From a virus, in IMG/VR virus record IMGVR_UViG_3300042518_000616, positions 1 to 26,896 of that record: a stretch of 26,896 nt of DNA; one strand, given 5' to 3'. How positions within the stretch are numbered: the stretch's first letter is position 1; each line of letters starts with the position of its first letter. The translations under genes were made by a program, and so were the position numbers. This document shows, piece by piece, positions 19-15,800 of the stretch. The notes under the pieces are model-generated. The model did no database searches. It saw only the letters and a program-made list of their open reading frames with translations, and was not told the origin of the DNA.

Positions 19-264
19 ATGCCGTCCGAAATCGAAATCCCATCACGCATCCTCCCATTGCAGAGTTTAATCCCCGGTGCTAAACCAAGCACTGCTCAAT
101 GGATCGAACGCGAAATTGCGATCAACGTGACGGACGGCAAGATTTACGTTCGGGTTGACGAGGCTCCCATTCTCGTCGCCGAGCGTATGCCTACACCACC
201 AAGCGACACAGGAACATTTGCACTTAAAGTTGTGAATGGAGTTTATACTTGGGTTGAAGAATGA
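19..264 (+). CDS. Small putative tail-fibre accessory protein (Mtd_N-like)
   Basis: 81-aa protein. Residues about 30-55 read EREIAINVTDGKIYVRVD, the pattern (E-[IL]-A-x-N-x-x-D-G-K-[IL]-Y-V) found at the N-terminal domain of many phage tail fibres related to the major tropism determinant, where it forms a small beta unit attaching the fibre. Here nothing follows the motif except a short Thr/Val-rich tail, so it may be a free-standing version or a structural cap. A stop codon in another frame lies at 11-13, probably the end of a preceding gene outside the window. The stop overlaps the next start in an ATGA, suggesting coupled translation. The role is inferred from the motif and from adjacent fibre genes. 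Confidence 0.6.
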   Translation: MPSEIEIPSRILPLQSLIPGAKPSTAQWIEREIAINVTDGKIYVRVDEAPILVAERMPTPPSDTGTFALKVVNGVYTWVEE

Positions 265-629
265 AATTTCTGATTTCCATATTTGTTATCTTACTAACAA
301 ACTGCACATCTACTCCCCCAGTAGATCAACCGCAATTCGTCGGTAAATACAAAAATGCTTGTTTGCCAGAAGCAATTGCGATGACGCAAGCATTGAAACA
401 AAGCGGGATTCAAGCAAAAGTTCTTATAGTAAATACTCCTAAGTTTAGCCATGCCTTGTCATGCTACCTTTATCCAACAAACCAAAACAAACTTTGGGTT
501 TGGGATAGTTATTGGAAAAGTATGAACCTTCGTGCATGGTGGCATGATTCTGATTCAGTTGCTAAAGAGTGGCTGAAATGGTGCAGTGCAGAAACCAAAC
601 TTACGAGTTCTCACTTTATAGAAAACTAA
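261..629 (+). CDS. Predicted lipoprotein with Cys-His-Asp (transglutaminase/papain-like) constellation
   Basis: 122 aa. The N-terminus is a signal peptide (MKFLISIFVILLTNC) with a lipobox-like ILLTNC, giving lipidated Cys15; Asn at -1 is atypical. The mature part shows an ordered triad: Cys34 in NACLPEAIAM at the start of a helix, His64 in FSHALSCY and Asp82 in LWVWDSYW. This is the order and spacing expected of transglutaminase-like or papain-fold proteins (Cys on a helix, His and Asp on strands). It lies between a fibre-like gene and the lysis genes, with ATGA overlap upstream. It could act in lysis, or modify or guard the infected cell envelope, for example against superinfection. Gene and lipoprotein status are well supported; catalysis is inference. 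Confidence 0.65.
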   Translation: MKFLISIFVILLTNCTSTPPVDQPQFVGKYKNACLPEAIAMTQALKQSGIQAKVLIVNTPKFSHALSCYLYPTNQNKLWVWDSYWKSMNLRAWWHDSDSVAKEWLKWCSAETKLTSSHFIEN

Positions 630-1761: not shown

Positions 1762-3741
1762 ATGAGTTGCGGAAATTCCAGAAGTTCTAAATGCAATCCG
1801 TGCGGCCCAAGTGAGGCGGCAATGAATTCAATTGCAGATCGTGCAGCTTACTATGCTCGCATTGCAGTAGAGGCAGCAAACTCAGCTTGTTTAGCATTAG
1901 AAAATAATGGCAACACAAGATGGGCATATCTTGGAGACGGAACACAAACTGTCTTTGAAATATCTGGAGCTAAATCAACATTTTCTCCATCATTTATAGT
2001 TGCTATTGATGGTGTATTACAAGACCCATTTCTTTATTCTGTAACTTCTGGAACTCCATATATTCTTACGATGTCTTCCCCAGTTCCATCTGGGTCTGTT
2101 ATTGTAATAATACCAATTAATGGTGTTACAGGTGCAACAGGATTTAATGGGGCTACTGGAGCAACTGGATTCGGAGCAACTGGAGCGACCGGAATCCAAG
2201 GAAATCAAGGTTCAACTGGAGCTACAGGTCTTGGAGCTACTGGCGCGACTGGCGTTCAAGGTGCAACTGGCATTGGTGTGATGGGTATTACTGGAGCCAC
2301 AGGAGCTACAGGAAGAGGAGCCACGGGTTCCACTGGCCCAAGGGGTTCTACTGGCATCCAAGGCCCAGCAGGAGGCCCGACTGGTGCGACAGGAGCCACT
2401 GGCCCACAAGGTAACGCAGGCCCAGTAGGTGGTCAGCGTTGGGCATATCCGGGAGACAACCTTGTTAATTTCTCAATAGGTGGAGCTACGACAACAAACC
2501 CACTCGGATACTTGGTTTGCATTGATGGTGTAACTCAAGACCCAGATAACTACACTATTGCTGGAACTGTTCTTACAATGTCGTCACCAGTTCCATCTGG
2601 TTCAACAATTGTAATTATATCTTTGAATGGCATCCAAGGAGCTACTGGCCCTGCTGGTGGCCCTACGGGTGCGACTGGTCTTACGGGCGCAACTGGCCCT
2701 GTTGGTGGCCCTACTGGAGCAACGGGTGCGACTGGATTGGGAGCAACTGGAGCAACGGGCATTACTGGAAATCCGGGTGCTATTGGAGTTGGTTATGTTT
2801 TGTCATCTCTTACTACAATTTTAATTGGAACGGGAAATAAAACATTCTTTGTAGATAAAGATTCTAATAATAGTGCATTTATTGTCGGTAATCGTGTTAG
2901 GGTTTCTAATTCTTCAACGCAATGGATGGAAGGGATAATTACTTCTTTTACAGGATTTTCTTTAATAATAAATGTAACAAATACATCTGGATTTGGGACA
3001 AGATCGCCGTGGAATATAAGTATTGTTGGCGAAATTGGAATTACTGGTGGGGAGGGTGCAACCGGAGCTACTGGAATACAAGGTGTAACTGGTGGGGAAG
3101 GTTCTACTGGAGCAACTGGCCCTGCTGGAGCAACTGGCCCTGCTGGAACTCCTGCTCCAACACAAGGATCAGCTAAAGCATGGGTCAACGCTGATATGAC
3201 CACATTGAATAATACTACTGGTTATCTTGGTCAGCCTTGGACTGGAAATAAAACATCTGGAAATGCAACTGTTACTATTAATACATCAACTGCACATGGA
3301 TTAAAAACAGGAAATTATGTTGCAGTAAATTTTGGTAGTGAAAGTGTAGTTTGCAAGTCAACTATAACTGTAACAGGTTCACAACAATTTGAAATACAAG
3401 CTACAGGAACTTTTGGAACATTAGCCACAACATCCCCTACAGCATTATATTCTGCAACTGTATCATCAGGATATAATGTAAATTCTGTATTTAGAGAATC
3501 AGCACCTACGGATGGAACTGGAACTGCATATATTAACTTTGACACTGCATTAGGAACATCAAACTATGCTTCATTTGCAACAGCAGAAGACGAAACTATT
3601 CCAACTCCAGCCCCACACATGGCAGTATGTAGTAGAGATGAAAAAACAGTAAACTATCAAAAGGTTGTAACATTTACAAATTCCACCCAACCCCCTGTGC
3701 TTACAGATATAAAATTAAGTTACATCGCATTTTCAAACTAA
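1762..3741 (+). CDS. Collagen-like tail fibre protein
   Basis: 659 aa. Order: Cys-rich N-terminus (Cys3, Cys11, Cys14 in CNPCGP); an Ala-rich helix; a beta domain at about 52-121 (RWAYLGDG...IDGVLQDP...SSPVPSGS); collagen-like Gly-x-y block 1 (about 121-223, mostly GATGATG); a second copy of the beta domain (about 225-289); block 2 (about 290-342); a beta domain around GNRVRV and WNISIV; block 3 (about 423-466); and a C-terminal receptor-side domain starting SAKAWVN, with an AHGL-type insert and ending [10 protein letters not shown]. Collagen-like blocks form trimeric rods in phage fibres. The Gly-x-y frame slips in places (GFGATGATG). Start: ATG after an AT-rich leader with no Shine-Dalgarno, six bases after an operator-like dyad. 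Probably a host-recognition fibre. Confidence 0.85.
2122..3160 (+). repeat. Three collagen-coding DNA repeat blocks
   Basis: Blocks of degenerate GGA-GCA-ACT-type units at about 2122-2432, 2629-2790 and 3028-3155 encode Gly-Ala-Thr triplets. They are separated by unique beta-domain sequence. Third positions vary, so the repeat is much stronger in protein than in DNA. Such blocks commonly change length by recombination. They also create long spurious open frames on the opposite strand. Confidence 0.85.
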
Positions 3742-12837: not shown

Positions 12838-15800
12838 ATGGAATTTGAATTTCTTGGTGAAGTTAGTGGCAAGTCTGAAAAACCATCTACGACAAAACCG
12901 AATGATTCTGGAATTGAGTTTGAATTTTTAGATAAAGTTACAGAGCAACCATCTGGCACATCTTTCGGAAAAGAAGTATCACAACTTGGGTCTGCATTTG
13001 TTGAATCTATTGGTCGTCCATTGGAAAACATGGGGGAATCTTTTGAGTCCTTTGGATTCACGGGTGTAGCTAATGCGCTTAAAGGAGCTATTACAGAACC
13101 AGAGAACTATGTTTCCGCAGGGCAAAGGTTCATAGAACCAGCACCAGATGAAGCTCAGTTTATGGGATTCGCTTGGCAGTATGCTCCAAGAGCGGCAGTC
13201 GAACAAGTTGGTCAAGCAATCGGAGCAATAGGAACGAGGGCCGTTGGTGCTGCTGCTGGTGGCGCAGTTGCTGGCCCACCGGGAGCGATTGCTGGTGGCT
13301 TTGTTGGCCCAGCAATATTTGGAGCCGCACAAGTTATCGGCCCAGTAGCTAAAGAACGAGCAAAAAACAATGGCCGTGAAGTTCCGAACAACGAGGACTT
13401 GGTAGCTGCTACCCTGACTGCTATCGGGTCTGGTTCTTTGGATGCGATTGGAGCGAGATACCTACCCGGAGGAGACAAGGCTACTGGCAAATTCTTCAAA
13501 CGAGTAGCTTCATCATTTGTTGGAGAAGGTGTGCTTACAGAAACTCCGCAATCTTTCATTGAGCAAATTGGTTCTACTGCTGGAACTGAAAAAGGATTAA
13601 ACATCAATGTTAAGCAAGCTGTAGGTGAAGGATTGATTGGCGGCACAAGTGCTGCTGGACTTACAGCAATCGTTTCTCCGTTCTCTAAACCAACTGAGAA
13701 CCAAGTTATCCGCACTCCAGAAGAAGCAGAGGAACTGGACATTAATGCTAAGGCTAACCAAGAAGCGATATTGTTGATGGGTGATCCAGCAGATCAAACC
13801 CAAAACGAGCGCATCACCAAATTAAAAGAAATAGAATCGGTCATAGCCAACAACGAAACTTTGATGAGTGGGTTGGAGCCTAATGCGCCAGAGAGAACCA
13901 AACTTGATTTGGAGAATCGTGTAGCTAAGAAGGAAGCTGAAAAGCTGAAGGTAGAAATAACTCAAGGAGCAGGATTATCGGAACCGATAACTACGATAGA
14001 AGAACAGCAGGCAGCATTGGCTGGAGAGATTGCCGCACCCGCCGAGCCAGCAGCAGAACCTTCCCGAACGGGAATAACACAGCCTGCCATAGCCGCCGAA
14101 GAGCAAGTTGTTACCGAGCGGGAAGCTGCACCAGTAGAACAAGTAGTCACGCCACCAGTAGAGGTTGCGCCACTTCCTGCAAGAACAGTTGAAGAATCTA
14201 TTCAGAACAAAGATACCTTTGAGTTTGAAGGAATGCGTGGAGCAGTAACGCTTGAAGATGGCACTGCTGTATTCCGTCCATTTGGAACAAATGATAAGTA
14301 TGAAGTTCCAATCAATCCCAACCAAGCTATCAGCGAGATTGAAGGAATCCAATGGGTTCGTAAAGGACAAACGCGCCAAGCTCCAGTTGAGCCAACAATT
14401 CCAGAAGTTGCGGCAATAGTTGAATCGCAACCACAGATTACAGAAGAAGAATTTAACGCTACGGAAGATGACTTCCAACTTCCTCCATCTTTGATTGAGA
14501 TTGAAAAGTCACCAACGCTAAATGCGATAGCTGATATTTTTAATACAGGTGAATCGAAGGTTGTCCAAGAAGGTAAACGAGCAAAGAAAGTTTCAGCTAC
14601 TCCAGAGTTCTATAGGCAGATCAGTCCAGATCAAATTGATGTAGCAAATCGTCAGATTGATAATGCGTTAAGAATCATTGATAACCTGTTTGTATCTGAA
14701 GAACAAAAACAAACATTGGCAGAACCATATTTGTTAATCGACCAAGACATTTCAACTTATGAAAACAATCCAGAATACAAACAATACAAAGCCTCAATTC
14801 GCAGGGAAGTTCGCCCTGCTGACCAAGCTGTCACACTCCCAGAAACTGCTGGCAAAACTAAACCCGCAGCAAAAAAACCAAAACTCGGAGAAAAAGGCGG
14901 CGTTCTAATCCCTACCAAAGAAGACTTCATCCAAGCAGGACAGAACATCTACGAAGCTGGCATGGAGTTTGGTGCTTGGGCTAAACAGATGATCCAGCAA
15001 TTCGGTGATGCCGTGAGAGAGTTCCTTGGGGAAGTATGGCAAGCAGTGAGTGGTGCGCCAGCGAAGTTGAATGAACTGATGGGGTATCTTCCGAAGAAGG
15101 GTGAGGCTGGAGCAGTCAATGTTGGCAAAGGTAAGATAGGTGAGAAAGCTAAAGCCGCAGAAAAGCCAGCAGAGGAAGCTAAAGCAGAAGAGAAACCAGC
15201 GGTAGAACCTGACAAAGAACAGATCAAGGGTGAAAAGATTGGCCCACCAAAGAAAACTCCCGAAGGCATCATAGCAAAAACCCAAGAACTCCTACGCAAG
15301 CAGTTTGACCCATCGAAAGTATCAGATAAGAATACTACTGAAGCATTCCGTGCATTGGGAAGATTGATGGGTAAAGGTGGAACTGATTTCGCTAAAGAAC
15401 TGAACGACATTGGTAGGGTAGTAGATAAGTCGGGCGCGGCGAGCGAGATCAGTATGGGCGCAGCGTTGTTCATTAACGACTTGTTTGAGTATTCCATTAG
15501 ACTCGCAGCAGAAGGAAATAAAAAGTTGCTTGGCATAATGTTGAGCAACATCAACAAACTTCCAACCGCTGGAATAGGAGTAAGCCAAGCTGCCAGAGAT
15601 TTACGCGCAAGGCTTGAGATAGCTCAACGATTCTTGACAATGGGGCAAGCTGAACAGGATGCCTACACTAACTATGTAGCAGAGTTTATCTACCAACCTA
15701 ATCCAACTAAAGATCAGATTCAATCTATCAAGGATGCTTATGCAGCGGTAGAGAAGACCCCGCAAGTAACCGAGCAAGAGTTGACTGATGAGATTGCAGC

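Follow-up and report, generated by a model that had tools for sequence, protein, structure and literature searches.

Why should a phage carry, between fibre and lysis genes, a small lipoprotein with the residues of a cysteine enzyme, and on what would such a protein act? The question was raised by a gene located at nt 261–629 (plus strand, stop codon included) of a 26.9-kb virus record (IMG/VR IMGVR_UViG_3300042518_000616), the whole analysed stretch of 26,896 nt being referred to here as the window. A preliminary description had placed this gene in a lysis cassette and had pointed to Cys34, His64 and Asp82 of its product as an ordered triad, with the spacing of transglutaminase-like or papain-fold enzymes, behind a lipoprotein signal. 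The analysis presented here indicates that the many environmental phages with this gene probably equip the host outer membrane, on its inner side, with a tethered enzyme that cuts or modifies proteins, and that alteration of the cell envelope is most likely the purpose of this enzyme.

Lipoprotein signal and predicted location

The 122-aa protein, for which a transglutaminase-like fold was predicted (see below), consisted of a short hydrophobic signal, Cys15, an 18-residue linker and a compact domain. The signal peptide, residues 1 to 15 (nt 261–305, plus strand), ended at the lipobox cysteine Cys15, the lipobox being LTNC in the window and LAGC, VAGC or LTSC in relatives. A lipoprotein signal, which mediates export to the periplasm, was present in every complete family member. 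Among 49 aligned members, 48 possessed the pattern [LVI]-x-[GSA]-C after a hydrophobic stretch and all possessed Cys15, by which the signal proposed ahead of the triad was borne out. The exception was the window copy itself, in which lipobox residue -1, being Gly, Ser or Ala in the other 48 members, was Asn (LTNC, nt 294–305), a residue outside the usual set at this position; its closest relative, sharing 98% identity, had LTSC. The window copy may be poorly lipidated, or may carry a sequencing or assembly error at the lipobox.

In E. coli, the residue at position +2 after the lipid-bearing cysteine (Asp or not) bears on the membrane to which a lipoprotein is directed. Since Asp occurred at this position in one member only and not in the other 48 of the 49, the outer membrane was the location predicted under this rule, which suggests that the lipoprotein is sorted there.

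Family members and conservation of the triad

Four scans of IMG/VR viral contigs yielded about 50 distinct proteins sharing approximately 40% to 98% identity with the window copy. Because the motifs used in the first scans included Cys34, the invariance of this residue was potentially circular, and the contigs were therefore rescanned with an alignment of residues 45–122 only as bait; Cys34 was retained in every complete protein retrieved. Asp82 was present in all proteins returned by a scan with N-terminal motifs, except one that ended earlier at its contig end, and His64 was absent from all search patterns. The invariance of the triad is free of retrieval bias.

Searches of INPHARED phages with three family members as tblastn queries, and of PLSDB plasmids, revealed no relatives, and a profile search against PDB sequences gave no meaningful match. 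A scan of GTDB genome contigs with fixed peptide motifs, which divergent cellular relatives could escape, revealed no true family member; its sole match (L069) was a 16-residue chance match within a PriA-like helicase and was rejected. Pentatricopeptide matches obtained with phmmer were also rejected, as they covered 30 residues of designed repeat proteins with no stretch significant alone.

Cys15, Cys34, His64 and Asp82, and these alone among the Cys, His and Asp residues, were invariant across the 49 aligned members. The order Cys-His-Asp in a single sequence is weak evidence, because the window protein contains four Cys, three His and several Asp. The triad picked out in the preliminary description was present at nt 360–362 (Cys34), 450–452 (His64) and 504–506 (Asp82), all on the plus strand, and was preserved in every aligned homologue, none of which lacked Cys34. 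Its codons showed synonymous variation only, with TGT in 33 and TGC in 16 members for Cys34, CAT in 30 and CAC in 19 for His64, and GAT in 32 and GAC in 17 for Asp82. The distance between Cys34 and His64 was 30 residues in 49 of 49, and that between His64 and Asp82 was 18 residues in 42 members, 15 in six, and 16 in one. As had been proposed, the 30/18 spacing fits transglutaminase-like enzymes, compared with 34/15 in HvyA (PMC4241560). Synonymous sites were close to saturation between the window copy and most members, and dN/dS values of 0.05 to 0.14 were obtained between the window copy and its three closest members; the family is under strong purifying selection.

Two further cysteines, Cys68 and Cys108 (nt 462–464 and 582–584), co-occurred in eight members, the clade of the window, most other members having a single Cys67 in place of this pair. 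Judged from the residue pattern, a clade-specific periplasmic disulfide between Cys68 and Cys108 is possible.

Predicted fold and profile matches

An AlphaFold2 run based on 12 near-identical sequences gave a poor model (pLDDT 58.6) and was replaced by a run with 49 sequences, in which the mean pLDDT was 84.3 and the core was largely above 90. The elements of this model were a helix (residues 35–47), four strands (52–58, 63–70, 78–82 and 86–90), a second helix (97–107) and a further strand (116–120). Cys34, the predicted nucleophile, opened the first helix; His64, the predicted catalytic histidine, was located near the start of strand 63–70; and Asp82, the predicted third residue of the triad, closed the following strand. 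In the model, the order of the elements and the placement of the triad correspond to the arrangement of transglutaminase- and papain-type enzymes.

When 972 chains were re-ranked with VIA-align, enzymes of the papain/transglutaminase superfamily made up nearly all of the best 50 rows, their matches spanning model residues from about 22 to 122. Names among these 50 were AvrPphB, CPR-C4, SseI, VASH1/2, LapG, protein-glutaminase, arylamine N-acetyltransferases and staphopains, and NlpC/P60 was absent from the list, an absence that carries no weight as evidence. The best Z was 5.5, over 86 to 88 residues, and since a Z of about 5 alone is insufficient as proof, the fold argument rests on the make-up of the match list. 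With a confident core and one superfamily nearly filling the best 50 of 972 chains, structure prediction and fold search supported the kind of fold initially suspected. A Foldseek search against PDB gave nothing significant, with no E value below 0.24, and one against BFVD gave no significant match, its listing including a COG3672 transglutaminase-like entry of 117 aa from an uncultured phage (E = 0.72).

None of the curated Pfam families passed its cut-off in any of the 49 members. The most frequent sub-threshold match was to Tox-PL-2 (PF15643, papain fold toxin 2), observed in 24 of the 49 with a best E value of 0.042; Transglut_core3 (PF13471; MEROPS C96, McjB) was matched in six (best 0.022) and Transglut_core in one (0.026). 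The Tox-PL-2 match of the window protein ran from before Cys34 to past His64 but scored 14 bits versus a cut-off of 25, under which "papain-fold toxin" was rejected as a label; the protein considered here is, moreover, a lipid-anchored stand-alone phage protein. The Transglut_core3 matches lay over the region of the Cys helix and scored 12.7 to 14.2 bits, where shown, versus a cut-off of 26, and no lasso-peptide context was seen here. Among the 49 members there was no Pfam match to NlpC/P60 (PF00877) or CHAP (PF05257) at E values of 0.5 or less, which leaves an NlpC/P60 affiliation improbable but conceivable, and none to BTLCP (PF06035). Given the low Z, about 5, and the failure of every Pfam model to exceed its cut-off, the family is regarded as divergent.

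In a review of papain-like enzymes (PMC10318531), Tox-PL-2, Transglut_core3 and vasohibins fall into a single cluster, consisting mostly of deamidases and transglutaminases, and with this shared cluster peptidase, deamidase and transglutaminase chemistry are all possible for the lipoprotein. Assignment of the fold and enzyme class to the transglutaminase-like cysteine enzymes is made with high confidence.

Gene neighbourhood

The ATG of the lipoprotein gene overlapped by 4 bp the stop of an 81-aa fibre-associated ORF directly upstream (nt 19–264), which weakly resembled a tail fibre PHROG (E = 7e-4). Downstream, and similarly on the plus strand, were, directly after the lipoprotein gene, a 73-aa ORF with a single transmembrane segment (nt 634–855), a gene for an Rz1-like small lipoprotein with the lipobox LSGC (nt 858–1016; weak PHROG spanin match, E = 0.13), a 57-aa membrane ORF representing a possible holin (nt 1013–1186), a putative lysin gene (nt 1186–1728), and a gene for a collagen-like tail fibre protein (nt 1762–3741; tail fibre PHROG, E = 2e-39). 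The putative lysin, in a slot held by CHAP/PG_binding_3 lysins in related contigs, had no Pfam match, matched phrog_3000 (E = 1e-10) and shared 48% identity with a protein of Bdellovibrio phage phi1422; it contained a motif H-x(n)-S-x-G-C that recalls L,D-transpeptidases, and perhaps represents an undescribed lysin family. Elsewhere in the window, nt 12838–18720 was occupied by a single ORF of 1960 aa with no significant PHROG match.

With its Rz1-like, small membrane and putative lysin genes, the window agrees with the lysis cassette of the preliminary description, but this placement did not extend across the family. The window's clade comprised 15 contigs, in each of which a fibre-like ORF was situated at exactly -242 from the lipoprotein gene; the downstream lysin was of the window type in six, of the CHAP type in four, of the PG_binding_3 type in three, and truncated in two. 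Over 72 loci, some of them truncated and scored with incomplete marker sets, lysis markers were found within 3.5 kb in 38, fibre markers in 36, and neither in 24. Phages with tail668 sharing 89% to 91% and lysin sharing 80% to 84% identity with the window had lipoproteins sharing 50% to 57% identity and placed elsewhere. In three loci (L156, L157 and L161) the lipoprotein gene was located between fibre genes, in two (L166 and L163) beside genes for a glycosyltransferase and a dCMP deaminase, and in one (L148), from a 217-kb virus, it was surrounded by small genes. Position after a group 1 glycosyltransferase gene, often before that of the dCMP deaminase, was a recurring neighbourhood, being observed in L166 (4847–6736), L163, L065 and L121. 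Two divergent copies were present in each of two contigs, 7.6 kb apart in IMGVR_UViG_3300044638_003204 (L130/L157) and 3.3 kb apart in IMGVR_UViG_3300042374_000171 (L139). In the family tree, gene context was clustered, yet had switched several times.

The variable context, the constant fibre link in the clade and the changing lysin indicate that the lipoprotein gene is a portable accessory gene, tied more tightly to fibres than to lysins. Assignment of the gene strictly to a lysis cassette was rejected, since the context varies and the lysin changes independently. As one third of the loci (24/72) had neither fibre nor lysis markers, a connection with receptor recognition does not hold for the whole family.

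Comparison with known systems

The BTLCP enzymes (Peptidase C93, PF06035), such as LapG and HvyA, resemble the lipoprotein in periplasmic export and in a similarly spaced Cys-His-Asp triad, and LapG structures were among the VIA-align matches of its model, with Z of 4.1 to 4.6. They differ in that the lipoprotein has no PF06035 match, is 122 aa in length versus 272 for HvyA, and is lipid-anchored whereas HvyA is soluble. HvyA, a periplasmic BTLCP of Caulobacter for which C192, H226 and D241 are needed, prevents capsulation and thereby alters phage sensitivity, which is changed upon its loss (PMC4241560). NlpC/P60 and CHAP wall hydrolases are likewise of the papain-type superfamily, but gave no profile match, and the triad spacing of the lipoprotein fits transglutaminase-like enzymes better.

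Llp of phage T5, encoded beside the receptor-binding protein gene (pb5), blocks superinfection through its action on the receptor (PMC9586334). Llp and Cor are similar to the present protein in being small phage lipoproteins adjoining receptor-binding or fibre genes, but they act by binding and possess no catalytic triad. The Cor PHROG match of the window protein was confined to residues 1–45 (E = 0.16) and did not cover the mature protein; assignment to the Cor family was rejected on this account.

Proposed function and alternative explanations

Combined, the precedents of HvyA and Llp favour an enzyme altering an envelope protein or receptor. The lipoprotein would be exported by the Sec pathway and lipidated, and the linker of about 18 residues would tether its domain to the outer membrane on the periplasmic side. 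Cys34 would then attack an amide in a protein of the periplasm or the outer membrane, resulting in cutting, or in deamidation or cross-linking, and the host surface or the phage receptor would be remodelled during infection, by which superinfecting phages would be kept out and progeny would be prevented from rebinding to debris. The best guess is thus a periplasmic, outer-membrane-tethered cysteine peptidase or deamidase that remodels the envelope of the host and may exclude superinfecting phages. Action on envelope proteins and superinfection exclusion, both suggested in the preliminary description, are plausible. An envelope-protein target with a surface-remodelling purpose is given a probability of roughly 0.45, while the narrower proposal of enzymatic superinfection exclusion, in which the tethered peptidase or deamidase alters the receptor of the phage's own genetically linked fibre, is considered unlikely.

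An accessory role in lysis, with the enzyme aiding the last lysis step by cutting peptidoglycan stem peptides or the proteins that link the outer membrane to the wall, would agree with the Rz1-like, small membrane and lysin genes adjoining the gene in the window, with the lysis markers near more than half of the loci, and with the place of NlpC/P60 and CHAP wall hydrolases among papain-type folds. It is rather unlikely, given that in the window's clade the fibre-like gene was constant while the lysin was of three unrelated types, that other loci had neither kind of marker, such as those beside the glycosyltransferase and dCMP deaminase genes, and that both wall-hydrolase families went unmatched in Pfam. 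Quite unlikely is an auxiliary enzyme for host fitness with no link to exclusion, for example one cutting adhesins in the manner of LapG for cell dispersal or adjusting the capsule. BTLCPs do act on adhesins and capsule, and they were the most frequent auxiliary genes in a single-virus survey of river viruses, apparently having spread between viral clusters (PMC11283719), but PF06035 was not matched, and the frequent location in the late structural or lysis region makes such a role less sensible.

The lipoprotein might also exclude other phages without enzymatic activity, binding and jamming an outer-membrane receptor as Llp and Cor do, its fold serving only as a scaffold. The position of a small lipoprotein gene beside fibre genes, as Llp is beside pb5, and the weak Cor PHROG matches are in line with this; the restriction of the window protein's match to its N-terminal part is not, and exactly one invariant Cys, His and Asp in catalytic order would be unexpected, which leaves a plug of this type distinctly unlikely. 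Maturation of fibre or tail proteins of the phage itself, to which the adjoining fibre genes in many contigs might point, is highly improbable, as the lipoprotein signal directs the protein to the periplasm whereas virions are assembled in the cytoplasm, and the fibre genes next to the lipoprotein gene differ.

Significance

The exclusion lipoproteins known so far, Llp and Cor, work by binding. If remodelling of the host envelope by a tethered cysteine enzyme is true, a widespread phage family with a membrane-anchored cysteine-enzyme triad would constitute an enzymatic route to changing the host envelope, and the enzyme would travel between phages together with fibre genes. Phage-encoded enzymes of the general BTLCP kind are already known (PMC11283719), what is new here being a short, lipid-anchored variant without a PF06035 match. 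The family would also offer a concrete candidate for the role that may be played by BTLCP-like genes of viruses, which were the most common auxiliary genes in that survey of river viruses.
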